From assembly GCA_905221615.1 (NCBI GenBank), contig CAJNDT010006182.1:301128-365127 (forward strand): a DNA stretch of 64,000 bases, in the 5' to 3' direction. Origin of the DNA: Symbiodinium sp. CCMP2592 (Eukaryota; Sar; Dinophyceae; Suessiales; Symbiodiniaceae). Of the stretch, positions 15,858 to 64,000 are shown piece after piece; position 1 is the first letter of the stretch; the number at the start of each line of letters is the position of its first letter. The position numbers were made by a program, and so were the translations under genes. The notes under the pieces are model-generated. The model was given only the letters and a program-made list of their open reading frames with translations, was not told the origin of the DNA and searched no databases.

Positions 15858-15859
15858 GG

Positions 15860-19100: not shown

Positions 19101-20000
19101 GGCGTTGGGCCGTCCTCTCTGAGGTTCTTCGGCTCCACGGTCGACTTCGAGCGTGGCAAGAGACGGCTGCTCTCTCGGTTGCTTTGCGGCCGTGGCATCG
19201 CTTGCTGCCTGTCGCTCGGGATGTCCTGGCTGAATTGCAGTGGTGGACCGTCGATGGCTCCGAGATTAACCGCACTGACACTTTTGGGCACCACCGAACC
19301 TTCAGGTTGAACGTGGATGGCTCTGCTGTACTTTTTCAGTGGTTTGCTGGCTGGCACCGCCGCCTTGCTCTTCAACGGTGTGGTCGTGTTGCCAGGAGCT
19401 ACCGCAAAATGGAGACGAGCTCGCACGGGGATTGGACCTTCCTGGAGTTCCCCCTGGCTCTCTCGCTTTGTTTCAGGGTCACGTGAAGCACTTCGAGGAG
19501 TTTTCTCGTCCTGGCTGTCATGCTGCGCTGGCCACGGGATGCTCGACTTGGTGGCTGCAAGGCAGGCTTCACGCGCAGGGCCCGATCACCTGTCGGTGTG
19601 GATTGGCCGAGCCTAGTCGTCCCCACTTGATGTGGGTCTGTGAGGAGTTCAGGCACCTTGCTCCGGCGGTCGTGCCCGCGAACCGTCTTGAGGAACGGCT
19701 TCTCCCGAGATGCCCGAGCCGCCGTTGGTGCTGGACGTTACCGAGTTCCTCGACTCTCTTGCGGATGAGGTCCTCAGCCTCGTTCGGCCTCTTCTACGTG
19801 GTGGCGCTCTTCGGCGTCTTCTTCTTCGTTTCACGACGGCACCTTCTACTTGGGCTCTTGGCCTGCTGGTGAGGCGCCCTGTTCCTGGAGAGTTCTTTCG
19901 CGAACTTTTGTGTATGAGAGCTGTGGCTTACCCCGGCTCTCTGGATCTCCACCAGCTGGGACTCATGACTCAGTCATGTGGCATCCCGCTGTGTTTAATT
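19100..20000 (+). pseudogene. C-terminal region of the LINE with Cys/His knuckle
   Basis: Past the RT, one frame around 19575-19650 shows CRCGLAEPSRPHLMWVC, a C-x-C...H...C pattern like the knuckle near the C-terminus of many LINE proteins. A Val-Asp-Gly-Ser string near 19310 could be the start of a degraded RNase H-like segment, but I cannot confirm it. Coding resemblance fades before 20000. Confidence 0.45.
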
Positions 20001-34339: not shown

Positions 34340-37300
34340 ATGCTGGTTTCCCCCTGCCGTTCCATCAACCTGGCACCTCTTCCAGCAAGATCCCATCTCC
34401 CTCGAATGGCTTTAAGAGGCACTTCGCGAGCCAAGCGAGTGGTGGTGATCGGTGCTGGCACAGCCGGCCTTTCTGTTGCCTCGTGTCTGAAATCACCCTC
34501 GGGTCGTAAGCAAGCGAAACAGCGAGACCCAGAGCCTCCGGACATCGAAGTCACCGTGGTCGAGGCTCGAGGCCGGCTGGGGGGACGAATTTGTACGGAG
34601 CACTTTGCCGATGGCTCAGCCGTGGATCTCGGTGCAGCATGGGTTCATGGTGCTTGCCGGTCGAATCCGGTAATGGCGATTGTGAGGGAGTGCGGAGCAA
34701 AACTCGTGGAGACTGATTGGGAGAACGACGTTCAATTTGAAGCTGTCGGTACTGAGACTGAGCCACACCCGAGCAAGCAGGTGGACGAGGTTGAGTTGAA
34801 GCGCTGCCACAAGCACTTCGAAGCACTTTGGCAGCTCTTCCGCATGAAGCAAAGTGCTGATCGGAGGGAGGCGAAGAAAGGGCCAATTGTGGATCAAAGC
34901 CTCATGACCACTTTGCGAGGCTTAAAATCGAAAGCCTTCAAAGGTATTGATGAGCTTGACAAGCGATCCCAGTTGCTGCTGCTCAGCGCAATATCGGGCG
35001 AGACAGAGCATGACTATGCCGCGACACCAGACGAACTGAGCTCAACTTGGTGGGACATCGATGATGAGTTTGATGGTGGACATGCCTTGTGGACGGCCGG
35101 GTATGAGCAGCTGATTGAGCATCTGGCCGCAGGCATCAAGGTAGTCCTCGATGCGCAGGTTGAGCGGATCGAGTGCTTCGCAGCGGATGCAAGTGGTGAT
35201 GGGACGGCCTGCACCGTGAGCTTGCGCGATGGCCGGAGGCTCGAAGCGGACTTCTGTGTCTGCACGTTACCTCTCGGCGTCCTGCAGCGGGATCCCGGGC
35301 TGCAACCACATGTTCGAAGGTGGGCTCTGGTTGACTCGTGAGCAGTGATCCGTGACACCATGACAGGCCCGAGAGAGGTCGAGAGGCTTAGCCGTAGCTT
35401 GCTAGTCCCCAGCATCATGCGAAGATGCGGTTCAAGCACCCACAACTTGAAGAGCAGAACCGCCAAGGACCAGGCAGCGCTTTTCAGGCCTCCCCTGCCA
35501 GAGGCAAAGGTTCAAGCCCTCGGACGGCTGGGTGTGGGAGTCTTGGAGAAGGTGGCTTTGAGGTTCGAGCATCACAGCTGGATTTAACATGTGTTCTTGC
35601 CTTATCCTTTCCTGCGTCTCCGATTGAGCTTGGGCATCGGGGTTGCGGGGCTCGGGGGGTGTTCGAATCCCTGAAGCCTTCATGAAGCGTCGAAAGGCGG
35701 TGTTTCTGGGAGAGCAAAGATGTGAAGCCTCACTGCATCTACCGGATACCGACCTCGGAGTCTCGGACTCTGCCGGCTGCCTGCGAATCGCCGAGCCTTG
35801 CACCGAATCTAGAGAGACGGGGAGCGGGGTTGTGTGACCGCACCCACCGAAGACTGCCAAGCCTACACAGCAAGGTACTGGGTCAGCCTCCGGCCTGTCA
35901 CCGGCAGCAATGTGTTGGTGGCGTATTTCGTCACTGGCGCGGGGCGGGTGATGGCCCGACTTCCGGAGGAGGAGGCTGTGAGCCGTGTGCTGGCGCTGCT
36001 GAAGCTCGGATATCAATTTCTTGTTTTCCCTTTCTCAGAGGTGTTCCTCTTGCTGCGCATCCCAATCCTGTATCCGCTTCAATTAGGATTGCTTATTTGA
36101 GCAACGGGTGCTGCAAGACCTGAAGATGGTGGTGCTGTAAGCAGACAGGCGATGGCATGGACAGCAAGAGTAAAGTAGACAAGCATGACACGGAGCTAAG
36201 GAAGTCGATGTTCCCCGCGGCGGAGGTGGATGCAGCGAATCTCCTGGAGGCGAAAAAGACGGCGCGCCTCGTTCTTCTTGGCACGGACGGGGCTTAGTGT
36301 TGTCTTCGCTGGGTCTCGAGTGTTTCCAGTTAGCACCTGACGGCCGGCAGCGCTGAACAAGAAAAAGGTCTAGGATCTGCAGCCCAGGTGGGCTGAGGAT
36401 GAGTGGTCTTGCGGGGGCTACTCCTTTCTGGCTGCCGCCTGGCTGGAACTTGGAGGTTTCAACGGGTGTGGAACTCGTTGTTGCAAGTATGGGGCTTGGC
36501 CTCCGTCTTACATTGTAAAATGAAAAGTTTGAAATCGCAGCACGGTGCAGCCCCCAAAGCCATTTTGGGTCTTGTTTCCGGTTCAGGCTCAAACCTGATT
36601 CGGGCCCCGATGAGTCTAGACTGTCTGGCAATGTTAGATCGCACATCTCAGTGTCCCAACTTATGCTGGATAAAATGTTTGCATTGTTGCATACGTACGT
36701 ATGGGCATATGTAGATCTATGCATGCACATGCATGCAAGATGCTTCATGAGTAGAGTGGGTGGAAGCGCATGAGCGCAGACTATCGCAGATGTGTGTCTG
36801 TGTCCGACGCCTCCCTTGAGGTTGGGGCGACAACGCAGGACAGGCACTCCCTGGCCGAGCCGGTGGGACCTCTCCATTTCGCTGGCGAAGCTACCCATGA
36901 CAGGTCCGACTATCACTGCCTTGTCGTGTTTTTTTTCGGTGTGTTTGCCCGTGCTGGCGGCTGTGCATCCATGTTCATACTGGTTTGCGCACCCATGCAA
37001 AAGCAAAAGACATACAGACAGACAGACAGACACACACACACACACAGACACACACACAGACACAGAGATACATTGAGACACAGAGAGAGAGAGAGAGAGA
37101 GAGAGAGGCGCGTGTACACACACACATACGCACATACACGAATAATTACATACATACGCACATACAGGCAGACATAAGTACATAAATATGTGCATGCATA
37201 CATAGAGGCACAGATGCACATGACCAAGGTTTCGACATGTACACATACTGAGCTACCGGGGTACCTGCACGGAGTGCATATCACAAACTTGTGAAGTTCC

Positions 37301-45395: not shown

Positions 45396-47449
45396 CCCAA
45401 CGGCATGTAAATATCCATGCCGATACGAATGCTTACACTTGCCGTCGAAACGCATGGATCTTAAATTAAAATCCATCACTCATGTAATTTAGGAAAACAC
45501 ACACTTTTCGATTATTCTGCACATCGTTTGGCTAAGCATAACCTTATAACCCGGGCCCCCTGGAATCCCCACATTAAGTGCTTCTTCACCACAGTATGTC
45601 GATGTCATGCTATGCTGGGTAGCCCAATTGAAGTTTCACGTAGGGACCTTGCCAAAGAAACCCGGAAGCAAAGCCTTACTCCAAATAAGCTATAGCTGTA
45701 TCATATAAGTTGATCAAAGCCACATTCGTAAACAAAATCCTATGGGGTTGCTAGCTTAACCAAACCCTGCACAGCAAGCTTTACATCCCCAAGCCGAGGT
45801 CGAAAACTCGATCTACAATCACATTGCCGTGGGCAATATCTTCACTTCCTTAAGGAACCCTATGATACTTGCCCTGGCTATGTCCATAGATGGGAATGCC
45901 AAGCCTATAGTACTAAATTATCAGGTTGGCCCAGGCATGATGGAATTGCTGCAGCAGTCCTCTGGCTTTAGTGGCTTATACAGTATCGTTCAATGCAGAT
46001 CTACTTGTCGTTCCATATATAGTCTAAAAATATCTAAGTGTCTAGTGCTCAACCTTTAAGGAGCCAACACTGGGATGTGTGTATTCACTTGCAATACTTA
46101 CCTGTGCATGTTACGCACATATATTAGGATGTTACATGCATTCACACATACATGCATACAGATACTACGCATGCTCCATACATGGCGACGGCATAGTGGG
46201 GAGTGTCGCCATCGACAATGCTGAAGCCAGTGGTCCTCCTGATCTTGGCAAGGTCTCGCTGGCTCTTATTGGTGCCTCTACATCAGGGGGTTCTGTTAAT
46301 TGCATGCCCGATCGAGTTGTGCATGCTTGCATGGCATATATGTTGAGCAACATTGGAACCGTGCATGCAGAGACTTCGGCTTCCAGCTTATGCGCACTAC
46401 TGTGTGCGGACTGCATGAATGCATGTGTAACCTGTAGCTAGCTACGTAGCTGTGGGCAGTCAGGCATGTTGCGACGACTAAGCTGTGCGTCTAGTGGTCA
46501 GCATGACAAGCCTTGCGGAAGTATGGGCTTCACTGCCTGGACTGAAGGAGCGTGGGGCTTCCGGGCGGCTCGTTATCGGGCCTGTGAACCTTCAGCGGGC
46601 TGACTTGGACTTCAACTGGAATATCACAGGTCATGCCATTCTTTGGGTGGGAGTGAGACCAAGTGTGGACCCCATTGCCGATAGCGTGGGGGACTTCTTC
46701 CATATGACCCGGGTCAAAGGGGCCAAACCGGCTTCACGACACTTAGCTGTTAAGTTCTGCTGATCGATTGTGATGCGCGCAAATATGTTTCCAAAGAGTG
46801 CCTTGGCTAAGGAGACTTTTGTAAGGCTGCAGCGTGGAAAGTGCGGAACCTCATCACCATGTTCTGCGCGATACTAGTATGCATGATTTTGGAGCCTTTG
46901 CTCGCGTGGTCTTGATTGAGATAGCCTTGGGCCTTTAAACTTGCATACCCTGTACAACCCAGGATAGCGAAGAAACCACACCGGCCTCGCGAACCCAATA
47001 TCATTCGGCTTTATCAGCTGGTGGGAGTGCCAGTCCCTGAAGGCAAGGCTCTTACACAGACTTTTGCAAACCATATTGTGAAGTATATCTATATAATACC
47101 TAGATAGGTAAGCCAAACCCGAATTTCCCAGGTCGCAGTCCTCACCAATCCATCGACGATGCCCAGGCAGCCTGGGGAAACAGGGTATGAACTCGTCACG
47201 GTGGTGTGTGCATGGGGTCAGTTATTAAACGGATCACCTTTATATTACATAAATTTAATAGCCCATGTATGCTAATCTCATTGTATCGCAGGGAATGCCT
47301 ATCGCTGTCCACGTTCTAATCTGTCCCGTGCTACCTCGTAAACCCCTAAAAGTTAGCGGCAAGCCGGCAAAACCGTAACACCAAATCCTGGGCCAACTAT
47401 AGAGCTAAAGTACTCTATGCAAATTGGTGGTTGAGCTGTGGGGCCCTAG
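45396..47449. other. Intergenic or upstream-exon DNA
   Basis: No family recognised. Two + frames have protein-like composition and could be upstream exons of the next gene: about 46168-46438 (starts near Gly-Asp-Gly-Ile-Val) and about 46503-46763 (Thr-Ser-Leu-Ala-Glu-Val, 87 residues to TGA). A CATGCATACA-rich stretch lies at about 46110-46180. The first confident exon downstream starts straight after a CTAG acceptor at 47450, so at least one upstream exon must exist somewhere here if the model is right. Confidence 0.4.
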
Positions 47450-49885
47450 GTGCTTGAAGAGATTGGTGACGGTGAGGAAGGGGAAGAAGAATGTGCGACA
47501 GAGGATGACATGATTGATGAAGAGGTTGCCATGTCAGCTGTGGAAGCAAGTGGGGATGCAAGTGCTGAGTGTGTGGATGCCCACGCAACTGGGATCCCCG
47601 AGCCGGCCTTGACAGGTCCGCCGACAGCCGTTGTGCAGTCTGATACAGGTGAGAGTGTGGCTCATCCAGCTGTTCCGGTGCCCGTGACCGATGCTGTTGC
47701 ACCGGCTGCTGCAGTGCCAAGCTTGTTGCCCCCGCAGCAAAACCCACCCGGTGCACTTCAGCGCGTGTGCACCAGTGCCTTACTTTGCATTTACATAGGT
47801 AGGAATGTGATGTGCAACGGGTTTGCAGTGCACATGCATGTTCTGTTTAATGCAGAGCATGCGGAGCATGAGGTGATTCTATCACGACTTGTGCTTCAAC
47901 CATTGCCACCCCCCCGCCGAACCGACCACACCCTGGTCTCCGCCGTCATCCACGGAGAAGCTTCCTCTTCCTGCAGACAGGAAGCGAGCTATCCTGCAGG
48001 CTCTCGAGAGTGAGTGTGCAACCATTGAGATGCTGCTTAAGGCCAAAGGGGACTTAGCCGCGAAGAGGGCATTCGAAGCTGCCCGAGAGCGAGTGCCAGA
48101 GCCGAGTAGCTTGATTCAGCATTGAAGTGTTTGTTATAATGAGTGTTCAGCAGGCCCTGCTTGCTTGGCCCAGGTATGGGTGTCGACCATATCGACACGT
48201 ACCCCATGGACACCGGTGTGGCCGAGGATGTGTTGCAAGCTGCACGGATCGAAGTTCACCAGCGTGAACTGCAGCAGTCGGTGCAGGAAGAGTCTCAGCC
48301 AAAGCCAGAGCTTTCGGCTGATCTTCGTGGCACAACCTTGATTTTGGGGCAGGTGCGACCTGAACCGGAGCAGGGGGAGGCCGAAGACGACAACAGGACT
48401 GTTTACTTCGATGCCGAAGATTTGGCTTTCCCAGATGACAGTCGGGTCGCTTATGAGGAGCCAAAGCCCATTGAGCCTTCGGTGGCGACAGAGGAGCCAT
48501 CACATGAGAAGCCCAGTGAGACTTCGATGGCTATAGAGGAGCCGTCAGATGAGAAGCCCACTGAGCCTTTATTTGCTGCAGAGGAGCCGACAGATGATGA
48601 GCCATCAGATGAGGAGGCTAGCGAGGCTTCGGTGGCTATGGAGGAGCCGTCAGATGAGAAGCCCAGTGAGAATTTGGTGGCGACAGAGGATGCGCTTTTG
48701 GTGGCTGCAGAGGAGCCGACAAATGAGGAGCCATCAGATGAGGCTAGCGAGGCTTCGGTGGCTATGGAGGAGCCGTCAGATGAGAAGCCCAGTGAGAATT
48801 TGGTGGCGACAGAGGAGCCATCAGATGAGAAGCCCATTGAGCCGTCGGATGAGACACCCGACGAGCTTTCGGTGGCTACTGAGGAGCCAGCAGATGAGAA
48901 GCGCACTGAGCCTCCTTCTGAATCCAGAGGCTCAGTTCAGCCACCCCTTCCGATGCCCGCTTGTGCCCGACATTTGGCTGTTGTCAGCCCAGCCGAACAG
49001 AGTGCAGGCCAAGCAGCCAAGAAAGAATCTGGCAAAGGCCGCGGTAGGGGCCGTGGCAGATCCAAGAAAGGATCTGGCAAGGGCTGTGGTAGGGGTCGTG
49101 GCAGCTCCAAGAAACCTGGCAAGGGCCGTGGCAGATCCAACAAAGGATCTGGCAAGGGCCGCGGCAAGGGCCGTGGCAGAGGCTGTGGTGTAAAGGCCAG
49201 CAAGCCGTTGCCGAATGAGGAGGCCTTGGCGGGTGTGCCCACCCGCAGTCGTGGAAGAGGCCGTGGCCGTGGCCGTGGCAGTGAGGGGCCGGATGCCATG
49301 GCGTCTGAGGCCAATGGCCACGAGGAGGGTGATGACAAGCTGTGCAACCGCAAGAAGGGTGCTGTGCCAAAGACCAAGCCGAAGGCTGAGAAGCCTAAGA
49401 AGGGTTCCGAGGTTGAGGAGACGCGGAAGGGATCAGCAAAGGCCAAGTCGCGGAAGGCCAAGCCGAGCGATGATGAGGATACAGCTGCTCGCGGGGAGTG
49501 TGAAGAGGCAGAGCCCAAGCGCAAGAAGGGGAAGAGGGATCAGGAGGTTGTGGCGCCGGTTCCCAAGGAGTCCGTGCCCAATCGCAAGAAGGGGAAAAGG
49601 GCTCAGCCGGCCGAGGAGGCAGCCCCTGAGGCTGCCCCTAAGCGCAAGAGGGGCGCTGCTCAACCCGAGGAGGAGCTGACAGAAGAGCAGAAGCAGAAGA
49701 AGCAGCTGAAGAGCCGCAAGAGTTGTGCTTACCACTGGGCCCGCCTTAACGCCATCAACCTAGGGTTTTCAGAGGAGGAAGCCAAGAAGCAGGGTCAGGA
49801 GGTCTCTTGCCCAAACTGTTCTTGCATACCTATGTACAATTTGTGATCCTCTGTGTCGTTGATTGCTCAGGCTTACAAGGACACC
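47450..49885 (+). CDS. Acidic then Lys/Arg-rich low-complexity protein, N-terminal part of a multi-exon gene
   Basis: Exon 47450-47764 follows a CTAG acceptor and encodes a Glu-rich then Pro/Val/Ala-rich stretch. A Pro-rich segment with a short helical part (ADRKRAILQALESECATIEM) follows to 48105, with a frame slip at a run of seven C (47909-47915). A GT intron leads to the main exon 48174-49801. That exon encodes repeats of EEPSDEKPSE type (48478-48930), basic repeats of GSGKGRGRGRSKK type (about 49020-49200), further Lys-rich blocks, and the conserved end SRKSCAYHWARLNAINLGF. Then a GT-AG intron joins a 15-base exon 49871-49885 (AYKDT). Acidic-to-basic layout suggests a nuclear or nucleic-acid-associated protein; no enzyme domain is visible. 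I infer it is the N-terminal half of the methyltransferase-like gene starting at 51154, because this module order recurs in dinoflagellate proteins I recall, but exons between 49885 and 51154 are unresolved. Confidence 0.65.
48478..48930 (+). repeat. Coding repeat of EEPSDEKP-type units
   Basis: Imperfect units of GAGGAGCCGTCAGATGAGAAGC type within the large exon. A longer block of about 75 bases is directly duplicated almost unchanged at about 48614-48690 and 48739-48815. Being in-frame, copy number changes would lengthen or shorten an acidic tail without breaking the protein. Confidence 0.85.
49020..49200 (+). repeat. Coding repeat of Gly-Arg-Gly-Arg-Ser-Lys-Lys-type units
   Basis: Units of GGCAAGGGCCGTGGCAG type encode a Gly/Arg/Lys/Ser-rich basic region, similar in composition to RGG or histone-tail-like nucleic-acid-binding segments. 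Confidence 0.8.
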
Positions 49886-51153
49886 GTGTGAATGAGAAGA
49901 TGACGAGCCGATGCTGTGTGCTTACACACGGTGCTTGAGCTTCCGCTTCCTGGTATGTTGCAGGGCTGAACAGTCAACCTCTGCCAGCTATGATTTTCAG
50001 GGACTTGCGCAGGCTTCGTGAAGGGGGTATGGAGATGTGCAGCCAATCTCAATGGCAATCCGAACAGCGGCACTAGTGCTAGTACGTGCATGCCCACGTG
50101 CGGGCTTTGTGTGCTTCCGAAAAGAACAACTGTGGCTCTGCCTGCCTCTTCGTGTCTTGCGAAAGCTAGGAAGCATCACGACTGTGGCTGTGCACTCTTT
50201 GCAATATATATAATATCATTCAAGTGCAGCCATCAGCAGCTCTTATGCCAGGTGGTGCTGTGGATCTACATGCGTGGACTCCCCAAGCACTTTGCCAGAA
50301 CCCGTTGCTGTGCGCCAGCTGCTATGTGAAACGTGCTTGACTATTGGAAGAGCTCTAGCCTTCGACATGCAGGGCTTAGTGCTATAGAGCTGATGCATTC
50401 CCAACTCTGTTGCAGGTACTGGTTTCATCGCGGTTTTCTCTACTTGGTTCGAGGCCGGGGTTTGCATGATCTAGTGTAGCCTGGAAAAGCTAAGCCCGAA
50501 GTCTGACAAAAAACCGTAAACCTTAAGCCCTATACCCCATGCCTACAAGACTTGATTATACCGGTACAGGTCATACCCTTTCAGCCGTGCCCAAACCATA
50601 TAACTCCATAGACCACACCATAGAGTTGAAACGTCTTCTACATTGGGTATATCTTGAAAATCTAAAACCCTACCCGACACCTTATGTTATCATCAGCCCG
50701 TTACCCCTGGCCCTCAGCCCAAAGCCCTAAGCCCCTAAGCCCACCGTTGCTCCACAGGTGCCTCGTCCTCTTCGTGCTGGAGCACTCGTCGCTTCGACCT
50801 GTTTGCGGCTATGGCTTTCCGCAGGGAAGCTAAACTAGATGGTCCGCCCTCCCCGATGCAGTTACACATGTGCTGAGTACAACGATAAGCTGTGCTGATG
50901 CTGAAGTGGTTGCCTGAAATCCACAGCATTTTGCTCTAGTTAGTACCGGGGCTTTGATATATATAGCAGGGAACCGTCATGGACCGCGCGGCCCCTCCAA
51001 ACTCATCCCTGCTGTGTCGTCTCTTTGAAGTCGGGGCTCCGAAGGCTACTTGTCTGAAGGCAGATCACGGTTTGCAGCAGGTCGACTCGATGGTTTTTAA
51101 ACAGAGTTAGCTAAGGTGCTGATCGCAATCACATTGCTTCTCCAATGGAGTAG

Positions 51154-52382
51154 GCAACTGCCTGCAAAGAGATTTGATATGGTGGATCTTTTTGCAGGGA
51201 CTGCGAATGCTTCCAAATTTTGGCTGCCTGCCTTAATGCAGATAAAGGCTTGTGCTGTCCTGTCAATAAGAACTTGAGTGAAGGTTTGTCGTTTTGTTGA
51301 TGCAAGGTCAGCCCGAGGGTTTCGTGTGGCCACGATTGACATCAACCGGTCGCCTCACATGAACATGCTCTCTGATGCTGGCTTCTTGTGCTGTGCCTAG
51401 CTGCAGGCTGCTCGTTGTAGTGAAGCGCAACTCCAAAACCGATAGGCTACCTAATTCAGCTAAGGCTTGTGGTTTGGGTGGTGATGACAATGGGCCCAGC
51501 TTCCTTTGCTTTGATGGGGCCGGTATGCTCATCGTGGGGCTTGCCCAATAGAGCTACTTCCCGCCGCGATTACATCAATTGGCAAGGTGGTCAAGAGCTA
51601 CCGTATGTTGCCCAGGCAAATATCATGATCAGTCGGATGCTCGACTGCCCTCTATGCTCTTAAGTTGCATGTAGGGATTTACAGCACAGGGAGACGTTGT
51701 GGATGGACTGAGGTGTGTGCTTGTAATCCTAGTCTTGTTGGCTGTCCATGCGACCTTTGTCCTGGAGCATCCGATGTGCTCCTTGATCGTTCGACACTGC
51801 CGCTTCGAATGGCTCACTAACTCTGTGGCCTGGGTACCTTGTACGAAAGTTTAACATATTGCTACTCTCTTCCGAAATGTACTCTCTGAAAACATGAGCT
51901 GTGCCCGGCCAATATATACTGCAGGTTTATCGGCAGAACTTGTGGCTTATGTCATGGGGCAGTTCATCACCCAAGCGCACATCATTGTTTTCTAACTCCC
52001 CTCTGATCAAGCAAATGGATGCTGGTGTACTTTGCAAGTCAGACCGGCTGCGAAAGACTACGAGAAAGACTGTTCGCACTATGGCTACATATATGCATCA
52101 TTTATAATGTTCTCCGGTTTAATATGATGCAATAAATATGAAAGGTACTACTCTCAGCCTCTCAAGCTTAACCCGCTCAGGTCGGTTCAGGGGGAAAGAC
52201 GGCACCGACAAGTTCAGTGGAGCCAAGGAGCTGAAAGATTCAGGGCCACTCGGTCAGCAGGAGCTTCGACTTTGGGGATTATCGAGACCCTAAACCCTGA
52301 ACCCTAAACCCTACCTTACACTACTATTGCTACTACTACTACTACTACTACTGCTGCTATATACTACTACTACTACTACTAG

Positions 52383-52424
<42 letters not shown>

Positions 52425-52532
52425 TACTACTACTACTACTACTACTGCTACTACTGCGCCTGCTTCTGCTTCTGCTACTGCTTTTGCTAGCTAATATTAC
52501 TACTAGTATTCCTATTGTAACTACTACTACTA

Positions 52533-52563
<31 letters not shown>

Positions 52564-52923
52564 GCTACTACTACTACTACTACCACTACTACCCCCACCA
52601 CCACTACCGACCACCATGACTGCTACTCGCTACTCCTTCTGCTCTGCAAGTTCTGACTGAAAGAATGATGAGGAACCCCCGTCAAGGGTTTTGTAGCAGT
52701 AGTAGTAGTAGTAGTAGTAGTAGTAGTCGTAGTAGTAGTAGTAGGAGTAGTACTAGTACTAGTACGAGCAGCACTAGTAGTATAGTAAGTAGTGACAGTA
52801 GTCTATTAGTAGTAGTAGCAGTAGTAGTCGTAGTAGTAATAGTTCCAGTTGTAGTTTTGGTAGTAGCAATGGTTGTTAGTTGGTGCATATTCTAGCAGTA
52901 CTACTTCCACTAGTTAGTATATA

Positions 52924-52999
<76 letters not shown>

Positions 53000-53302
53000 C
53001 GTAGTAGATGAAGATGATGATGATGATGCTTTTAGGGGATGTTGTACTTTCTTTTCATCTGCCGCCTACAGGGAGGGTTGATGGTGAGACAACCCGGCGG
53101 CAGATGAAAAGAAAGTACACATAGTGGTAGTAGTAGTAGTAGCAGTAGTAGTCGTAGTAGATGAAGATGATGATGAAGAAGAAGATGATGATGATGCTTT
53201 AGGAACTCTAGGGGATGTTGTACTTTCTTTGCATCTGCCGCCTACAGGGAGGGTTGATGGTGAGACAACCCGGCGGCAGATGAAAAGAAAGTACACATAG
53301 TG

Positions 53303-53345
<43 letters not shown>

Positions 53346-54067
53346 CAGTAGTAGTCGTAGTAGATGAAGATGATGATGAAGAAGAAGAAGATGATGATGA
53401 TGATGCTTTAGGAACTTTAGGGGATGTTGTACTTTCTTTTCATCTGCCGCCTACAGGGAGGGTTGATGGTGAGACAACCCGGCGGCAGATGAAAAGAAAG
53501 TACACATAGTGGTAGTGGTAGTAGTAGTAGTAGTAGTAGAAGTAGTAGTAGAAGTAGTGGTAGTGGTAGTGGGCCGGGATTTATAGGGCTGGGGTTTTGC
53601 GGGATTCCGATCTTTAAGGCTGAGTGAGGGCATATGGTACATGTGCGATCAGGTTTATAGGGATTGGGTTGCTTGGTGTTGAAAGCGATGATTAGTGTTA
53701 TATCTTTCGGGCTTTATATTATTAGTGCACAATCAGGATTGTGGGTTCAGGGCTTTTGGCCTCCAACCTTCTTGACGTACCATGCAGGGTCTACCCCGTG
53801 CGCTTCTGCCAGAAGCTTTACCGTGCCTTCTTCGAGACGGAGATTGTCCATGATCGCAAGCATCTTCGGCACAAGAACTTTGTCGACCCTGGGAGAACAG
53901 ATCGTGAGATTTTCGAAGATATGGGTTTGGGCGATGTTTGGAGCGATGCCAATCTTGTCGCAGTATACTTTTATGCTCGCCAAAACAAATGGTTGGTCAT
54001 ACCGGATTCGTGGCTTGCAACCATAGAGAAGTTCGACAAAGAGTTGGATGCTAGAGTGCCTCGATAG
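51154..54067 (+). CDS. Cytosine-C5-methyltransferase-like domain protein, six exons
   Basis: Exon model: 51154-51222, 51307-51387, 51465-51640, 51733-51833, 51925-52055 (or 52067), 53788-54067, stop TAG. All phases match. Joined, the protein shows RFDMVDLFAGTANASKFW (like motif I, SAM loop, DLFxGxG), GFRVATIDIN (motif II acidic strand), FALMGPVCSSWGLPNRATS (like motif IV, with the Cys where the catalytic Cys of PPCQ would be), FVLEHPMCSLI (like motif VI, Glu kept but ENV is EHP), then WGSSSPKRTSLFSNS and YPVRFCQKLYRAFFE. The last exon ends in a domain rich in Trp/Asp I cannot name. No motif VIII/IX/X is clear, so methylation activity is uncertain. Introns start with GC (51223), GT (51388, 51834), TC/GA (ambiguous at 51641) and GA (52056). 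The last intron is 1.7 kb and filled with repeats. I recall this family as multicopy in dinoflagellates and possibly tied to retroelement-captured methyltransferases. Confidence 0.75.
52288..52313 (-). repeat. Interstitial telomere-like repeat (CCCTAAA)n
   Basis: Three near-perfect CCCTAAA heptamers (one CCCTGAA variant) lie inside the last intron of the methyltransferase-like gene, just before the triplet tract. Confidence 0.9.
52319..52607. repeat. (ACT)n triplet tract
   Basis: About 290 bases of ACT/CTA triplets with a GC-containing and TTAT interruption near 52445-52530. It is the complement of the (AGT)n tracts 90-400 bases downstream. Confidence 0.9.
52692..53000. repeat. (AGT)n triplet tracts
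   Basis: AGT/TAG triplets run 52692-52880 (imperfect) and 52926-53000 (nearly perfect), in the opposite sense to the ACT tract upstream. The long open frames here (poly-Ser or poly-Val) are artefacts. Confidence 0.9.
53001..53512. repeat. Three-copy minisatellite with a 23-bp hairpin
   Basis: Each unit has AGT triplets, a GATGAAGATGATGATG stretch, GGGGATGTT, then a 23-bp inverted repeat around a 29-base loop. Arms: 53044-53066 with 53096-53118 (perfect), 53220-53242 with 53272-53294 (one mismatch), and 53429-53451 with 53481-53503 (perfect). The arms read GTACTTTCTTTTCATCTGCC... and its complement. The loop carries a second GGGTTG/CAACCC pair. Unit spacing is 176 and 209 bases, differing by triplet number. 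Confidence 0.92.
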
Positions 54068-54845
54068 CAGCTAGGGTAGGGGCCCGAAACCCTTTGCAGA
54101 TCACAAATCCTAGCTGATGCCTTTGATGTGAGAACACAGCCGAGGTGAACCATTCAAAGCACTTGCGAGCGGAGTACAATGCACTGCTGACTTGATCGTG
54201 TCCTGCAAGGCCACCCAATACGCCCAAGGCTAGGCCCTAAATCCCGTACACCTACAAACCCTCTTTGTAGATTCCTTCGAAGCAGCCACCCAATGTTCCG
54301 AAGCAAACCCACCAATGAAAACCTAGCTATATATACCCTGGAAAAACTTTCCTATGCTATTCCCGATTAAGCTAGCAAACCCCAAGCCCGAAAAGCCCTG
54401 CCTGTTAGTTACTGGCACCCTGAACCCTAGACCCTAAAAGCCCTGAGCCCTAAACCCCACCCGATAAATCCAAAGCTAGGCCGAAGGGAAGTCAGGTGCC
54501 CTTATGCCGTGCAAGTGGCACAGGAAGGTGCTGACTCTAGGGTATAATTCGATTGCAATTCAGTGGCCCTCGGCAACCCTAACCGAAATCAGGTTCTTTA
54601 TGTGCAGAGTGACAGTCGACCAGAACCCCGTTGCCCCAAGAGTCTTTCATACTGGGTTTGGAATAGGCCAGCAGCATACCACAGCCGATTAGGTGCAGGG
54701 CCAGTCCTGGGTTAGATCGTGTACACATACTAATATACGGGCCCAATCCTTAAGGGTGCAGTCTTCATGCAGTACAGGATCACTCATGTTTTTTTGTAAA
54801 AGTCATGGAAATCTTGTTTTATGTAAACCGAGTGGAAAATACTGG

Positions 54846-54908
54846 CCGCAACTCTGGCGCAAATCGCCGCAACTCTGGCGCAAATCCCCGCAACTCTGGC
54901 GCAAATTG
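54846..54908 (+). repeat. 21-bp unit in three exact-phase copies
   Basis: CCGCAACTCTGGCGCAAAT plus two bases is repeated three times head to tail, differing only in the last two bases. It is flanked by a short inverted pair (AAAGTCATGGA at about 54798 and its complement at about 54911). Confidence 0.9.
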
Positions 54909-55568
54909 AAATCCATGACTTTAGGCTTTTGGCCACTGCTACTAATTCGGTAGCAGTCCCGGAAATTGCTTGGATCCGAGCACCCGGCGGCACGGTACTT
55001 CCAAAAGCACCGGAGCAGCACCCCTGCCTGAGATGTGTGCTTCTGAGCGAAACATGTATGACCATGTCGATCTGTGTGCATATGAGGATCAAGTTTTGTG
55101 TTTTGTCGGGCCGAATAGGCTTGCATGACGTCCTTAGAAAGCTTGAACCAAGCTGTGGGTACTGTTTGCAACTGGAGCCCAAGCATGTCCTTTGGGAACT
55201 TGGACGAAGCCGAGCTGGATGCAAGGCTTAGTGCTGCGTGGTTGCAGGTCTCTTGTTGCGGTTCGGGGCTTTGAGGAGTCATCGCACACGGTTGGTTTCA
55301 GGGTGTGAGATCTAGGCACTATTCAGGAGTATCCCTGCATCCCAAAAATGGGTCTTGCCATCCTACAGGTAGAGCACCCAGCACTAATATTTGTGGACGT
55401 AGAGCCGAGAAGGAAGCCATGCGAGCCCCCAAAGGGTCCCAGGTTAGTTACGCTGATGCCACCAAAAGCGGAGAAGTGCCAATAAATGTAATAGTTAATA
55501 CACTACCGCTGGAGGGAGGGAGAGGGCACCCACTCAGTATCGAGGGCCAAACCCAAACAACCAAGCAA

Positions 55569-55671
55569 GAGGGGGGGTAGGGGGGGGGTAGGGGGGGGGG
55601 GGGGGGGGGGGGGGGGGGTAGGGGGGGGTAGGGGGGGGGTTGGGGGGGGGTAGGGGGTAGAGGGTGGGTGT
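55569..55671. repeat. Long G tract with TAGGGGGGG units
   Basis: Over 100 bases made of G runs separated by TA or TT, including one unbroken run of about 30 G. The units look like telomere heptamers with expanded G. This is quadruplex-prone and a likely assembly weak point. Confidence 0.9.
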
Positions 55672-56782
55672 GTTTTCGTGGGTTTTGGGTGTTTTTTTGA
55701 GCGTTGTGCTCGTGCCCCCCCCCCTTTCTGAGTTCCGGCCCAAGGCCACCCAACCCCCCCTCCCTGGGCGTATTTTGGGGGGGTTGGGTTGCCTCTTTTT
55801 TTGCATCCAACACGACCAACAGCTAACGAGATGTGCTGTTTCCACCTCTTCAGGACTTGCCAGGAGATTGGACACAGGAGAGGGGAGAGCGAGAGAGAGA
55901 ACATCTAGACAGACACTAGCTTACATCTTGTAGTGATCACTTCGAAGCTGTCTTTTGTCTTGCAAGTTGTATTTATACATAGTATATGACAACTTACATA
56001 ACCTGCTCACCCCGTAAACCCCGATGTTGTGCTGAGTGCAGGCGAGCAGCCTGTCGAGTCCTGCATGTTAGGGTACCAAAGTAGGGTCAAGGACCTAGGG
56101 TGGGGTCATGACCAAATTCTTGCTCTAGCCCAATGACCTTTAGGCATGTGCCCAAACCCAACACTCAATGTCACTAGGATGATACTGTATCCCTTCAATG
56201 CCATGCTGTAGGACCTATGCAGGCAGTCTTGACTAAAATATTATAAGAAAATCTAAGTACTTGATACCACCTGCATGCATGAATTTTTCCCGGAGCTAGG
56301 GCTGCCGATTCTTGTTCATCGATCGATGTTGGGAATTGGATCGGTGTGAGAGGGTTCTTGGTCGCGATCTAGAAGATATGATTAGAGCGAGGCAATGCGA
56401 GTTCGGGCACAGCTAGAGTTCAGCCTCTGCAAACCAAAAGTCCCATCCCTGCCGAACAGCAAATTACCCAGCTAGAAGCACTTAATCCTGAAGCCCTAAG
56501 CCCTGCAACCTTCTAAAGCGCAAACCCCTCAGAGGTCTCCGAATCTTTTGTTCCAGAAACCATAAGTCCCCTCACCTAAACCTTTTTGCTTACTATTAAT
56601 ATATTTAAAGTACTAGTACTATTCGTATACGTACTAGTAGTACCACTGCTACTGCTACTGAACTATAGTTAACTGCTCCTGCAGCTGCCTCTTCGCTTCT
56701 GCTGCTACAACCGTTATCAATGGTGCTATCGAATATGCTAGTGCTAGCGATTTAACAATCTTTTCAAAATCTATGTTCCAAG

Positions 56783-59700
56783 GCTGCCAATGCAAGGCTC
56801 GCGTCCTTGCAGAGGATGATGGCCGGTGGAGCACCGGAGCCTGTGCCGCCGATGATTGCAGGACTTGTTGGGACAGGTAGTGTATGGTATGGCTGAGTGG
56901 CTCATGCATGTGTTCAGGAGTCCCAACGATGGCTTCGAATAGTGGTCAGTTCGTGGCCGGCTTGGCTGTTGGAAGTGTTGGGGGTGCTCCTCCTCCCCCT
57001 GCGATGACAAACACGCCCCCAAGCACAATTTCGAGGCCCTCCCCTTCCACGCCGTCTCCAAACCCTGTTGCTTCCAAGGGTTTTGTTCCTCTTGGGCCGG
57101 AAACACAAAAGATGCTGGCCCAATCGTCAAAGGAGTCGCTGCAAGCATGCCCCTCCAAAGATTCTCTAGCAGAGGCGAGTCTGGGAAGCGCCCTCACCGA
57201 AACCTGGCCGGATACACAGCCCCCCGAGCCAGCTGCCAGCCCATCCCCTTCCGGCCCACCAGGCTCAGTATCAACAGCTTCGCCAGCTAAGCCACCAGGC
57301 TCACCTTCCCCAGCTAAGCCAACCGGCCCGCCCCTGCAGTCCAAAGGAAAGGGGCACGGCATGCCTTTGAAACGACTATCCCCCAAGAAGCTGGGGTTTG
57401 TGCCGGCTTCCTCCATTGTTCAAAAGACTGCTGCAGTGAAAGCAAGTGCTGAACCCAAGCTGGAGGGCTACTGGAGGTCATGCTGCCTAAATCGGGATGT
57501 TTGCCCTTTGCCGTCGCAAACCTTAAGTCAATCTGTTCCTGCTTTGCAGGGTGCGACGCTATCTTCGGAACGATTCGAAGGGCGAGGCCAAATGTTCCAA
57601 GGAGATGTTGGAGCTGGGGAACACTCCGGATGGTCGTTGCTGAACTGCATGCAATTTTAAGTCTCGCGCTTCTTTATGTGGGTAGGCTGCAATGTGTCCT
57701 ACATATGCAGCGCAGATGTGCTTCGAATCATCATCATTCATCACCATCAGATCACCATGCAATGGTGAAAACCACGTATAATTATAGAGAGAACTGTTCA
57801 TACCTCAGGTGAGAAGATTCGGCAGCTGTTGGTGGAGAAAGGAAGCTTTGACAAGGTGGAGCTTGTTGTCAAGCAGTGGCAGGAGAGGAAGAAGACGGAA
57901 GAGGTCGCAGGAGGCTATGTCACCAAGAAGTGGTTGATGGACAACAAGTCATACACACAGTATCTTGAATGCACAAGCATGTGTAGCTAGCTATATTCTA
58001 TCTGCATCATCTCAACACCTGTAGATGTGTTGTCACGTTAGGACAATGGCTGACAATGCCTTCAAGTGGGCAGCCCCTCGCGGCAGATGCCGCAAGAATA
58101 TCATCACAGGAGAGGAGGAAGCGGACATTCCCCTTGATGAGAAGTGGCAGGTCAAGAAGGAGCAAGGCCAGCGTCTGGAGTTCGAGACCGGATGCGAAAT
58201 GGATGTGTCTTGCTTTCACTGATCATCACGCATGTAGCCAGCTAGCTTTTACCATGTGTGCAAAAGACGAAAAGGAGAAAGAGAGAGAGGGAGACAAAGA
58301 GATGCAGAGAGAGTGGGAGATGTGAACGACACAGAACACACACTAGAATACACGCATGGCTCATGTACATTCACTCACTCGTTCGCTCACCCAGGATCCG
58401 AATGGCAGCCTGCTTGAAGAGACGGGCTTCTCTGGTGAGGATCATCTCCAGGATTTCGCAGGCAGCTCTGAGGCTCTGCCTGCGGTGTCAGTCGCGGCTG
58501 CACAAGCCGGGGCTTCCTTCAAGTCCCTAATCTGAAATCCCAGGAGCACTTCGTGTAAGCTGCCCTTGAAAACCCCCTAAAGTTCGTCTAAGGTTGTGCT
58601 TCCCGGCACTGCAGCAGAATGTCTCACCGGCCTCCATACTCCCCAGCTTTCTTACTGTGCTTGGACGAAAGCTAGACAATGGTGAGGAGGCCAAGGACTC
58701 CACGTGTGTATAGGTCTTTGATATCATTCAGGGCTGTGGTTTTGGGGTTTTCTAAGGTCTATAGGTGAAGTCTGGCCTTAGTCTATACATATTTCTACTT
58801 TCAGCTAGGTCTACACATGGGTAGTTGTCAAAACTCTAGTACCGGTACCTATATTTTGTGTACTCGAAATTTATAGGCACTGTACTATAACAAGGAACGA
58901 AGAGGGGACCATGTTTTGACAACCACCCATGTGAGAACCGTTTATACACTATACATACCACAACTTATATCTAACAGTATGTACTTGATAACTATTGTGC
59001 TATATAAGTTAATGTCATATAGACATCTATCTATGTATACATATATGTTGTTTATATTATATGCATATACATGTACCTTAGCAGCAGGGTTTGGACTGCA
59101 TCGCAGGACAAGTGTCTTGCTCTGAAGACGGCCAGGTCGGAGTCGTCACTTGTAAGCAACTAGGTTATGTACACAATGAACGACGCGCAATTGTAGGAGA
59201 AGACCTCTGGCCTGTTCTACCTAGGATTGCGAACGACATGACGAAGTCCCTGGAAAGCCTCCAAAAGATCTATGATGAACTGCTGAAGAAGCAGGCTTTG
59301 GCAGCAACTGCCACGACGGAAGACGAGCTAACCAAGATGACTGGCTGAAGTACCACAGGATGTTTAGAATGTTTGAAGACGTTGATCTGGAGTCCCTGCA
59401 ACAGAAACCTCTAAGGATCGAGGCCGAGATCGTCTCCAATTATGTGGCTGCGACCAAGGAAGACCTAGCCTTCAACAATTTTCTCCAACGATCTAAGCAA
59501 CCAGGCTTCAATTACTGGAGACTCCCAACCTACCCCATGCTGCTTCCTGCTCAGGAGCCTGAAGGGCAAGAGTACCGCGACACCCGCGCCAGCTTCCAAA
59601 CACAAAGGTGCGATCCGCCCGAAAGCTAAAGGTAAAGCTGCAAACAAGGCTGGTGATGCTGAAGAGGGCAAAACCAAGCCGACCCCGAAACGAGGGGCCA

Positions 59701-61517
59701 GCAAAGCTGCTCCCAAGAAGGGTGGAAAGAAACCCCGAGCCAGCTGATGCTGCTTTGGGTAGATGTGGATCATAGTGTGTTGCCAAGGCATGCTTTAGCT
59801 GCTATTGCTAGTGTGTGCGCCAAATTACTTACCGTGTGTGTTGCCTAGCCATGTACACATGTTACAAAGACGGGTATGTGCATCAAGTGTGCATATCATG
59901 CAAGCACATGCCAAGGCTCACTGCTTCCAGCGACCACATGTGGTGCGTAGTGCCACTGTGCGTTAATTAGTCATGTGGGGCTAGCCGACTGCAGAGTGGC
60001 TCTCGAAAAAGGCGGTCCTTCTTCGTGCGAGGGTCTATACGGCTATACGTCGTACCGGGATGCTGACTTGTACACCATGCGCAGGTACTGGAACCATGGA
60101 TTGGGCTTATGGTGCCTTGTCTATATATGGCCCACTGCTCCTCAAAACCTGGCACTTAAAATCAAACACGTGTACTATATGTAGTCTGTACTATCCGCTA
60201 TACCGGCAAAGCCTTAATTAATATTGCAACGAAACCCAATGACAACTCTAGCTGCTATCCTGTACCACCCTTCACCCCTTATGAACCCTAGTTGAACCCT
60301 AAACCCCTACGACAGGAGACCTCGTCTGGCTTACATAATTAGATCCGAGTTGTGGACTATATATCCCAGACAGGAATTCTGCAAGACATGCACATATCGA
60401 TGATCATATTACCTAGCCCCTAAACCCCGTAAACCCCCTAAACCCTATCTTGTAAAGAAGCCCATACTTGCCTGCTCCAACAGGCAAGCCCGAAGAGTCG
60501 GAGTCATCATCGGATGACCTGTTCGACGAGCTGCTTGAAGGGATCAGTGGTGGTGCTCCTTGTCGAAATACGTTTCGACAAGTACTGCAATGTTCGTTTC
60601 GTAAGCTTTTGGAACTAGCCAAGGTCGACTCTTGTGCAAGAGTTACTCGTCTTGCCAGCAAAGCTGAAAAGAAGCTACGTCGAGCAGGTGTGCATTTCAA
60701 ATTAACATAGGACCACATGTACCGTCTATAGAATCTTGAACCGAGTGTTGCAATCGCTATCTTGTGAAGGTGGACGGGACCCGATGTTGGAACGACTGGC
60801 CCGGTGTGCACGGGGTGGGAAAGGCAATGCTTGCCGCAATCTTCACCGAATGCTGGCCGATGACAAGCTGTCACTACCTGTGTCTGTCTCCATAATCGAT
60901 GTTCCGATTAAAGAATTGAAACATAGACGAGAACGAGTTGTCGGCTGGCCGGTGCTCCGGTTGTCGAGTTGGGCCCGGTGTGCTCTGGCTCGCGGTGGGG
61001 AAATGTTACTTGCTGGACACTGCTTAGAAGATGAGCATGCTTGGCGAGCAGAACTGCGAGGATTTTGGGCCAAGTATTCCTGCATAGATGGTGGACATCC
61101 ACTCTTCTCCAGTGAAATAGACCCTTCTTGTACAGTACCCTTTATGGTGCATGGTGATGAAGGGCGAGGACGAAACAAACAACCTCTGTTATCGGTTTCG
61201 TTTCAAGGGGTTCTGTCCCACTACGGAAGCCATCGAGTGAACATGTCAGGGTTCCCCAGCTGCACTTCCGAGTACATAGCACGGTTGTTACACAAGTTGG
61301 CCGATGACACAGTCTGATACATTCCTGGCTTCCAGCTGTACTATCTGAGGCACTCATTCTGCAGCCGACTGCTGTATGCTTGCTTCCCAGCGCAGTGCTA
61401 TGCCGAGGACGATGCGAGCCTCTACGCACTACTAGATGATTTGTCGGTGGACTGCTTGTCTCTGTTCCAGTCTGGGCTAGAAGAACCTGGGCATTATATG
61501 ATAGGACAATCCCCAAC

Positions 61518-61549
<32 letters not shown>

Positions 61550-63711
61550 CCCTAAGCCCTAAACTCACATAAGTTCCGCATTGAAGGGCTATCATTGACC
61601 TGTGGCCCAAACCCCCAACCGTGCCTGAATAACATACTCAGGTGATATGGTGCTATACGTAGAAGTATATGTTGATGGCGCCCGAAACTCTGAACCCTGA
61701 AATCCTACTAGCTGCTAAAGGTGCCTCCGCATCGGGTTTCTGATGATGTTACTGAATTGATAGTGGCCCCTAGGTTGAATTTCTGGACAAGACCTACAAG
61801 ATCCATTTTGCTTATCTGGGGTGCAAAGGTGATTGGCCTTGGTTGCGGAAAGCCTGTGCTCTAGAGCCTGGGTGGAGCTCGAAGCGTCTGTGCTTTTTGT
61901 GCGAGCAAGAGGCTGGGCTTTAAGGTATGTCCTCGATCTAACCCTATTATAATAGGTATATATATAATATTATATATTATGTAATTAATATGTATATATA
62001 ATATAATTAATAGACCTCGTTGATCCCTTATAGGCTTGGTATGATCTTACTGCAGCTTCAGCTCTGCGAACAACCTGGACACCAGAAAATCCTGGAGCAC
62101 ACCCGTGGATGCCTCACGCTTACAGCCCTCTTCGAAACATACCCGGTGGGGACAACTGGCTCCGAATACGGATCGATCCAGCACATACCTATGCAATTCA
62201 AGGGTGGGGATCCACCCTGGCAACCTCATCCTTGATACTGGTTTGTCATCTAGGAATGGCAGAAGGAAGATCTATCAACCGCCGCCTCGACTACTTGCTT
62301 AGGTCTTTCAAGCACTGGTGCAGCAACAACGGCAAAACCACCAGCCTGAACTGCATCACGCTGGAGAAGTTAAAGATGAAGTCGATGCCAGACCTGATTA
62401 CAGTTTGTCTGGGATACATATTCTAAATCTACATAGGGGCTTGTAAACGACTCGGTAAGGCATCGAGGGTGTGTCAGGTAGAAGCTTAATTAATTCCCGA
62501 TGTTTTAATTGTTCTAGTGCCTCAATTTCACATTTCCCAACCCTGAGTTTTGTGAGATATTGTATGCGATCCGGGTGCTTCCATGAGTCGGAGTCAGAGA
62601 AGCTGTGTTTTTGGTTATGAAGTTCTGCCTTCAATCTGTCTAATTATCTATTCTACACATCTACATAGCTCTCTCCTTACATCTATCCTACCTATGCACC
62701 TACTGATCCATCCATCCCTCCGTCGATCACAATATTGTTGATGCTGTCGAGGCTGAACTACTTCCCCATGGGGATCGGGAAGGGCTTCGACACAATCCTG
62801 CTGCTGGAATGGCTTCAGGACTTTCTGCGGACAGCAGATGCTGAAAGCTTGGACTCTTGGCTTCTGTGTGCGTATGTAAATATGCAGTCTAATTAATGGC
62901 ATGCCTGGGTTTTGCAAGTTGAATCTACAAGTAGTCGAAGTCTGCACTTCAGAGCAGCCAGGATCAAGGGCATCGCAATTTGTTCGATGTGCTGGTTTGG
63001 ACGATCGAGAGCACTAACAACTTCTTCAAGCCTTTCTATGGAAGGGGGATTTGGATCCCCAGCACCGTTGCCTCCGATCTGGTGTCTCATGGCTATAACA
63101 TGCTCGTAACTCGGCCGAATCGTCACAATTCGAAACTTCTAAGAGGGGGGCTGCAGGTGATTGAGTTTGATAAAGTGTAGTCAGGCAGAAACTATATAGT
63201 TTTCGATAGATCTGTAAAGCACACTCCCCCTTAGAAATGCTAGGAGGGCTATGGTTACTTGGTGGCGCTTTGCGTGCAGCGACGCTGGGCGCTTTTTAAG
63301 CTGAAGCCGAAGATTCACATGCAGGCTCACCTTATGACTCTCGGCATCTGAAACGTAGCATATATGTTTCTACTAGTTTGGAAAGATCGACGATGCTCGG
63401 AATGCTCGAAATTTCATACCAAATTATAAGGCGTGAACTCGAGTTACAGCTGCCTAAAGGCCACATCATGAACATTTTGTGCTCCCTGGCGTACTTAGAA
63501 TGTCACATTAATTCTTGCTGGTAAACACAGAGTGAATCCCATTCCGTTTCAACGACCTAGCTAAGGCATGGCCTGTTGGTCAGACGAGGATTTCATAGGA
63601 CGTGTATCGCGGATCTCGAGGCGCCAATCGACAGCGAAAGTGGCAATCAGAACCACAAGGGTGTGTCTTATTTTGTATAAGAAGCTCTGGGACCGAGAAG
63701 TTCCGTACTGA
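56783..63711 (+). CDS. Large intron-rich dinoflagellate protein of unknown function (about 18 exons)
   Basis: Function unknown. Exon model: 56783-56876, 56918-57476, 57550-57632, 57809-57959, 58042-58204, 58395-~58527, ~59198-59335, 59359-59496, 59555-59736, 60484-60685, 60732-61250, 61350-61482, 61774-61911, 62034-~62392, 62752-~62870, 62962-63090, 63247-~63336, 63566-63711 (TGA). Phases agree at most junctions. Order of parts: Ala/Pro-rich N-terminus; a helical unit KIRQLLVEKGSFDKVELVVK followed by GGYVTKKWLMDNKSYTQ; RKNIITGEEEADIPLDEKW; a Lys-rich nuclear-signal-like linker (59600-59736); an acidic SESSSDDLFDELLE; then a large core with HGDEGRGRNKQP, KGDWPWLRKA, CFLCEQ, IDPAHTYAIQGWG and KPKIHMQAH. 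The start lies upstream of 56783, since that exon follows an AG acceptor. Donors are GT, GC and GA. Two candidate introns are only 23 (59336) and 41 (56877) bases, so local borders may be wrong. I recall this as a multicopy family in Symbiodinium; a transposase-like origin is possible but unproven. Confidence 0.75.
60413..60452 (-). repeat. Interstitial telomere-like repeats
   Basis: CCCCTAAACCCCGTAAACCCCCTAAACCC-type heptamers in the intron before the core domain. A similar cluster lies at 60284-60310. Confidence 0.85.
61520..61548. repeat. (TA)n dinucleotide tract in intron
   Basis: About 14 TA units inside the intron between exons 61350-61482 and 61774-61911, followed directly by CCCTAAGCCCTAAAC. 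Confidence 0.9.
61940..62014. other. AT-only intron segment before a 3' splice site
   Basis: About 75 bases of almost pure A and T (TATATAATATTAT, TAATTAATATGT) precede the CTTATAG acceptor at 62033. This is the most AT-rich stretch of the window. Confidence 0.8.
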
Positions 63712-64000
63712 AGCAGTGCCGCCCTGGTGGAAAAAAAGCTGAGGGTGTGGCAGTGGCCACAGGATGTACAGGTCGATGTAGCCAGTCCAGAGAGGTTCGG
63801 GGTTTGGGCAAGGAACCTATATATGATATCATAGCCGTAGAAGTTTCTGACTATATAGGCCGAACAGCTAGCCCACTGACTTTGACAGGTTTACCGTGAA
63901 CCCCCAAGTTAGCCAATCGGGCGCTTCCCATATGCTTGGACTTGTCATTTATTATTCTAGTGTTCTGAGCGAGTGGCCTGGCTTATAAGAAGCAGTTACC
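63712..64000. other. Downstream DNA, nothing recognised
   Basis: After the TGA at 63709-63711 I see no further coding sequence. No canonical polyadenylation signal is obvious, which is not unusual for dinoflagellates. Confidence 0.5.

Follow-up and report, generated by a model that had tools for sequence, protein, structure and literature searches.

The coral-symbiont alga Symbiodinium carries a multi-exon gene that very probably encodes a DDE transposase of the superfamily formed by Transib, CACTA and RAG1, the last being the enzyme that rearranges antibody genes, and whose lineage is only dinoflagellate among the relatives with a named source. The gene lies on the plus strand of a 64,000-nucleotide stretch of DNA from Symbiodinium sp. 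CCMP2592 (assembly GCA_905221615.1, contig CAJNDT010006182.1, positions 301,128-365,127 of the forward strand), hereafter the window, to which all positions below refer. Its exons can be joined into a stop-free frame that retains every acidic and zinc-binding motif residue, and a full-length relative, P0002, has a RAG1-like predicted fold. Strain CCMP2592 appears as S. tridacnidorum in PMC8045281.

The joined gene model (plus strand, 56816-63711) comprises 21 exons with 3,417 nucleotides, encodes 1,138 amino acids with 0 internal stops, and closes with the TGA at 63709-63711. Its 20 introns have GT (11), GA (7) or GC (2) donors and AG acceptors throughout (20/20), and the G+C content is 54% in exons versus 44% in introns. 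The model combines a profile spliced alignment, junctions taken from the homologues P0005, P0008 and P0004, and boundaries set by hand, and these sources partly disagree; splicing at the locus is thus deduced from homology. Exon 1 with the start codon, the ends of exons 2, 10 and 21, and exon 11 were set by hand. The donor of exon 19 was likewise hand-set, after P0007, as the automatic alignment took a different donor and lost HxxxH. Confidence is lowest for exons 1, 2 and 11, for where exon 10 ends and for the junction of exons 19 and 20; the ends of exons 9, 10 and 12 vary with the homologue when homologues are aligned singly. The first-pass annotation of this DNA had described an intact gene of about 18 exons at 56783..63711. 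The intact frame and the end at 63711 are identical in our model, the start moves 33 bases further in, and the exon count comes near (21 in the model, 17 in the profile alignment and 18 via P0005).

The same annotation had read the protein in phase over about 7 kb, and a splice-aware test agrees with it. By dynamic programming, a 14-homologue profile was aligned to window positions 56700-63800, with introns of the form GT/GC/GA...AG allowed and frameshifts and stops penalised; the alignment scored 1284.9 over 17 exons with 0 frameshifts and 0 in-frame stops. Since stops could be threaded in random DNA once GT, GC and GA donors are allowed, the controls were given equal freedom, and their scores lay at 122-141: 140.2 for the reverse complement of the region, 137.2, 139.1 and 138.1 for three other 7.1-kb segments of the window, and 140.7, 131.3 and 122.2 for three shuffles.

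A public protein of the same strain, P0005 (482 amino acids), aligned over 18 exons with 480/482 residues identical, and the stretches 57811-57960 and 58085-58204 match it at 100% and 97.5%; judged by this identity, P0005 is the protein of this locus or its allele. As annotated, P0005 is without HGDEGRGR, GDWPWL, CxxC, DPAHT and DEDF, and therefore most of the enzyme core is hidden in the public annotation. It closes exon 17 at 62836 and continues past HMQAH into a stop.

In the joined protein, HGDEGRGR occupies residues 707-714, GDWPWL 803-808, CFLC 824-827, IDPAHT 877-882, HMQAH 1053-1057 and SDEDFIGR 1096-1103; HGDEGRGR, KGDWPWLRKA, CxxC (as CFLC) and DPAHT are all found as first read. In the P0002 model, D189 lies in strand 181-192, D290 behind strand 276-289 and E572 in helix 569-582; these residues are the D, D and E of an RNase H core, and all three are retained in the window protein. 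The Asp and CxxC of exon 15 correspond to D290, C310 and C313 of P0002, and hhalign pairs them with the Asp and CxxC of RAG1. C310-x2-C313 and H540-x3-H544 (P0002 numbering) are nearly invariant in a 27-row alignment of the window protein and 26/36 homologues, ten having been left out as partial or faulty gene models. Their window counterparts are CFLC and HMQAH, the latter resting on the hand-set donor. In addition, the Asp and His of DPAHT are conserved in 24/24 of the rows that cover these columns. The definition of the RAG1/Transib/CACTA (CMC) superfamily given in PMC12730594 places C(2)C and H(3-4)H between the second D and the last E.

Structure alignment of the P0002 model with RAG1 extends over about 457 residues at about 12% identity, and the match spans 27-611, nearly the whole model. 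RAG1, ProtoRAG and Transib, then the P element, were its best matches, and the best 37 VIA rows are all transposases or RAG1. The predicted structure of this relative and the D-D-CxxC-HxxxH-E signature agree with the RNase-H-fold, transposase-like protein that had been proposed.

Placement within the superfamily was approached with profiles and folds. By hhalign, 27 core sequences scored 31.8 against the RAG1 core (P 0.0043, probability 8%), compared with a maximum of 25.2 in 60 shuffles. The aligned stretch sets GTKGDWPWL...ICHRC opposite GTGYDEKLV...ICTLC of RAG1, which we take to be the second catalytic Asp and the zinc CxxC of RAG1, and this weak match seems to hit the expected residues. 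With 25 CACTA transposases (25 of 120 listed proteins) as partner, the score was 27.0, in register, with a null maximum of 27.4 in 40 column permutations. Alignment A3, which holds 32/36 homologues (without P0004, P0005, P0008 and P0009), scored 29.0 against RAG1 (maximum of 100 shuffles 24.5; reversed sequence 20.3) and 27.9 against CACTA, and CACTA against RAG1 scored 17.2. The comparison tool gave A3 an E of 0.051 against RAG1 and 0.069 against CACTA; alignment A2 met CACTA out of register (E 0.19). On RAG1 chains the structure alignment starts at about residue 441-480 for the P0002 model and at about 533-566 for a CACTA model used as yardstick. That model is poor, with a predicted local distance difference test score (pLDDT) of 66.9 and an N-terminus below 50, so that this fold comparison is unequal; its first match is also RAG1, over a shorter range, and a RAG1 match alone therefore cannot separate RAG1 from CACTA. 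Taken with these low scores and the poor CACTA model, profile and fold hint that RAG1 is the better fit.

Several results weigh against a RAG1-like transposase. The hhalign probability is low and refers to a single RAG1 sequence, and earlier alignments gave E 0.051 and P 0.01. Pfam returned no family for the core at E<=10 and, for 18 members, eight weak matches with a best E of 0.0094. These matches (WDR47_COR 0.0094, zf-RNPHF 0.012, Dimer_Tnp_hAT 0.027 and five more) are scattered, one member each. Nine further-searched relative proteins gave three weak matches, and no RAG1 match was found in Pfam for the core, the 18 members or the nine proteins. An ordinary cellular enzyme family, the outcome that the first-pass annotation had set against its own reading, is not seen in Pfam, which has none for the core and scattered weak ones for the relatives. 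HMMER profile searches of PDB sequences recovered no RAG1 chain up to E 10; their sole match was RSC8 (best E 0.0016 and 0.0082), aligned along some 65-75 positions in the zinc region. Identity with RSC8, a chromatin remodelling protein, was set aside, and the match is taken as chance or zinc-site likeness. The computed fold is that of P0002, a relative of the window protein. Finally, the mobile origin that had been suggested remains conjecture: no convincing terminal repeats and no target duplications were found in the window, which ends 289 bases past the stop codon, and exact inverted matches between 54500-57004 and 63690-64000 reach at most 11 bases.

A protein search with the joined core exons returned 28 clusters at E<=0.001, none with a listed Pfam domain, and a second search added 8 further clusters; some of all these clusters are fragments. 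The named sources are Symbiodinium, Cladocopium and Durusdinium, and some entries are called 'unnamed protein product'. Strain CCMP2592 has two different members, P0005 and P0019, so the description of the family as multicopy holds in outline only. With the 28 relatives as queries, tblastn (E 0.01) found no further copies in the window outside the gene. Pattern matches numbered 40 in viral contigs and 586 in prokaryote genomes, with 0 confirmed as relatives in either set, and among predicted viral structures none matched at E<=0.001, the best (E 0.062) being a Pandoravirus hAT-type protein. The core of the window protein shares 30-38% identity with the named Cladocopium and Durusdinium relatives in the same group. 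A 24-row tree (the 27-row set minus P0007, P0010 and P0015) shows two groups of 9 and 15 rows, with an end branch of 0.12 for the window gene; the midpoint root serves only the drawing, and part of the tree is uncertain owing to the long row P0031. Among the relatives, the N-terminal residues ~60-150 of P0019 look by eye like a GIY-YIG-type nuclease (VFKIGFTHNPAFRW...) fused to the transposase core, with no Pfam match, and P0008 (Symbiodinium microadriaticum), collinear with this gene, bears the database name 'OGG1, partial', which is probably a naming error.

Ahead of the core, which begins near residue 580, the protein has a Pro/Ser-rich tail (residues 1-207), a conserved module (208 to ~321; VRRYLRND...CSKEMLELGNTPDGR...MADNAFKWAAPRGRCRKN..GEEEADIPLDEKW), a linker, a Lys-rich stretch and an acidic patch, in this order. 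The module is common to P0030 (Cladocopium), occurs partly in P0004, P0009 and P0015, and perhaps binds DNA or a partner. The starts of exons 7-10 are the same via P0005 and P0008, and that of exon 6 via P0005 and P0004. P0030 has a Lys-rich stretch at the corresponding place in the order. The acidic patch is kept in P0004 and P0008 and diverged in P0009, P0015, P0029 and P0030.

In RAG1 and Transib, three acids bind two metal ions, water nicks one strand, and the 3' hydroxyl released in this way attacks the opposite strand or a target. By analogy, two or more subunits of the Symbiodinium protein would grip the ends of the element through the N-terminal module, the linkers and the module recognising DNA ends or partners, while the core would bind two Mg2+ through Asp709, Asp804 and Glu1098. 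Nicking at the DNA ends would be followed by joining of the ends to a new target, possibly by way of a DNA hairpin of the kind that RAG1 and Transib form, and the large helical insertion would be anchored to the core by the zinc site of CxxC and HxxxH. Most likely the gene spread with a DNA transposon whose transposase it encoded; this copy may be either still mobile or taken over by the host.

Alternatively, the family might belong with CACTA/EnSpm (or Chapaev, Mirage or Plavaka), the RAG1 match then reflecting a fold common to the superfamily and the absence of CACTA among solved structures. CACTA/EnSpm was the initial idea, drawn from motifs, and is kept as a rival only. Its hhalign score does not exceed its null, whereas that of RAG1 beats its own; the A2 match is out of register; and PF02992 (Transposase_21) and PF13960 (DUF4218) gave no match up to E 10 in the core and the 18 members or up to E 1 in the nine proteins. 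In addition, the spacing of the two Asp is 101 residues in P0002 and, presumably, 108 in RAG1, and the P0002 model aligns to RAG1 over a longer range than the poor CACTA model does, unequal as that comparison is. We consider a CACTA affinity rather doubtful. The protein could also be an ex-transposase retained by the host for a cellular task, e.g. DNA rearrangement or repair. The 20 introns, the intact frame and the short end branch are in favour of such domestication, as are the sharing of the long N-terminal module with a Cladocopium relative and the failure to see terminal repeats in the window, but the right flank is too short for excluding such repeats. Identities of only 30-38% to relatives of its own group, and different members within one genus and one strain, fit a mobile family better than one conserved gene, and the two groups of the 24-row tree likewise favour a mobile family; a host function seems to us a lesser possibility.

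It is decidedly improbable that the gene is a recent pseudogene whose exons can be joined merely through the non-standard GC and GA donors. Such donors occur in 9/20 introns, several junctions were chosen by hand, and the annotated P0005 is without the exon parts that bear most core motifs; however, there are zero frameshifts, the score is nine times that of controls with equal freedom, and the catalytic and zinc residues are all retained. Moreover, the annotation procedure described in PMC8045281 for this algal group was modified to accept GA donors, and a table row of PMC7789003 gives GC|GA-AG introns as 25.3%, 51.8% and 74.0% in three of the seven genomes compared. Another RNase H-fold nuclease, or a cellular zinc protein with a superficial likeness to transposases, would account for the weak RSC8 match at the zinc region but not for a RAG1 match over 27-611 of the P0002 model with only transposases or RAG1 in its best VIA rows, and is very improbable indeed. 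For the transposase that we favour, we put forward only tentatively that dinoflagellates hold a diverse, transcribed and catalytically intact RAG1-like lineage, nearer to RAG1/Transib than to CACTA and with N-terminal modules of its own.

Table 1. Exons of the putative transposase gene and the features they encode (window positions; catalytic and zinc roles are predicted).
Feature	Position	Strand	Basis or remark
Exons 1-2, Pro/Ser-rich N-terminal tail, presumably disordered	56816-56876, 56918-57476	+	Open, in phase
Exons 3-5, conserved N-terminal module	57550-57635, 57809-57959, 58042-58204	+	Spliced-profile alignment (P0030, P0004, P0009 and P0015 in the profile)
Exons 6-10, linker	58395-58522, 58593-58695, 59107-59144, 59225-59338, 59416-59517	+	Homologue junctions
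Exon 11, Lys/Ala-rich linker	59555-59721	+	In phase with both neighbours; hand-set limits
Exon 12, acidic patch SESSSDDLFDELLEGISG	60484-60549	+	End per P0008; P0005 and P0004 place the end elsewhere
Exon 13, core start, first catalytic Asp in HGDEGRGR (61150-61173; Asp codon 61156-61158)	60770-61250	+	Asp equals D189 of P0002
Exon 14, HSFCSRLLYACFPAQCYA..., RNase H fold helix	61350-61482	+	Spliced alignment, model
Exon 15, second catalytic Asp in GDWPWL (61828-61845; codon 61831-61833), CFLC zinc ligands (61891-61902)	61774-61911	+	
Exon 16, IDPAHT (62172-62189), within the large insertion between second Asp and Glu	62034-62383	+	
Exons 17-18, helical insertion	62752-62851, 62962-63105	+	Spliced alignment, model
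Exons 19-20, HxxxH zinc ligands HMQAH (63316-63330)	63244-63335, 63386-63480	+	Hand-set donor
Exon 21, third catalytic acid in SDEDFIGR (63580-63603; Glu codon 63586-63588), C-terminus, TGA	63566-63711	+	

Other features of the window were noted in passing. A 21-nucleotide inverted repeat (58814-58933; 95% complementary, 78 nucleotides apart) lies within a long intron of the gene and looks like a small element carried by the intron. The stretch 56590-56706, immediately before the gene, has three weak blastn matches (74-81%, 52-105 bases, one inverted) about 4 kb further upstream, at about 52377-52760, and is a diverged repeat. At 55560-55680 there is a G-rich tract with TA or TT steps each 9-11 bases. 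Farther away on the plus strand, 14982-19307 has matches to OTU protease (E 3.9e-10) and endonuclease/exonuclease/phosphatase (E 1.4e-8) and then an FVDD-motif frame without a Pfam match, and looks like a retroelement of the long interspersed nuclear element (LINE) type with an OTU domain. A flavin-containing amine oxidase frame (PF01593, E 4.8e-29) lies at 34337-35338 (+), and a 567-residue frame with Glu/Pro/Ser-rich repeats and an Arg/Gly/Lys-rich tail, without a Pfam match at E<=0.01, at 48143-49843 (+).

The origin of RAG, and hence of adaptive immunity, has been traced via RAG1-like and Transib transposons, which are mainly animal, with one reported from an alga. If true, the presence of the RAG1 fold in a dinoflagellate branch would provide a new outgroup and a test of the age of the fold's domain layout, and would extend RAG1-type recombinases to alveolates. 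It would also offer a candidate for the enzyme behind DNA rearrangement, or behind the spread of intron-like elements, in dinoflagellate genomes. An enzyme class for the 'unnamed protein product' entries of coral-symbiont genomes could help the annotation of mobile DNA and activity tests. In the literature, no title or abstract opening among the matches listed describes this family or dinoflagellate RAG1-like genes, subscription papers and supplements lying outside that scope. PMC9435367 (2022) refers to RAG1L fragments, documented in its supplement, from 'several other primitive eukaryotes'; the word 'dinoflagellate' is absent from its main text, and dinoflagellates might be among these eukaryotes.

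Among known systems, AanRAGL of Aureococcus is a RAG1-like transposon reported from a unicellular alga, to which the Symbiodinium gene is likened by the description in PMC9435367 and not by sequence. From Transib (HzTransib) it differs in giving no PDB sequence match and in that terminal repeats and target duplications were not found here. With CACTA/EnSpm it shares the superfamily signature, CxxC 18-20 residues past the second Asp and H-x3-H; in contrast, the Pfam models are unmatched, hhalign does not rise above its null, and the range of RAG1 matched by the CACTA model is shorter. From RAG1/ProtoRAG it is set apart by a structural identity of about 12%, H-x3-H instead of H-x4-H, another N-terminus and the missing RAG1 match in Pfam. 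In the six frames of 47001-56800, Pfam gave no match whatsoever at E<=0.1, and no RAG2-like neighbour was seen there, although exons may be short and the window has just 289 bases past the gene. In predicted shape the protein is closest to RAG1, and it has several features in common with RAG1/ProtoRAG: the hhalign match runs in register across the second Asp and CxxC, the CxxC lies 19-20 residues past the second Asp in this family and, presumably, in RAG1 alike, and the likeness extends to the D-D-E layout, the paired His ahead of the Glu and a predicted fold shared over about 457 residues.

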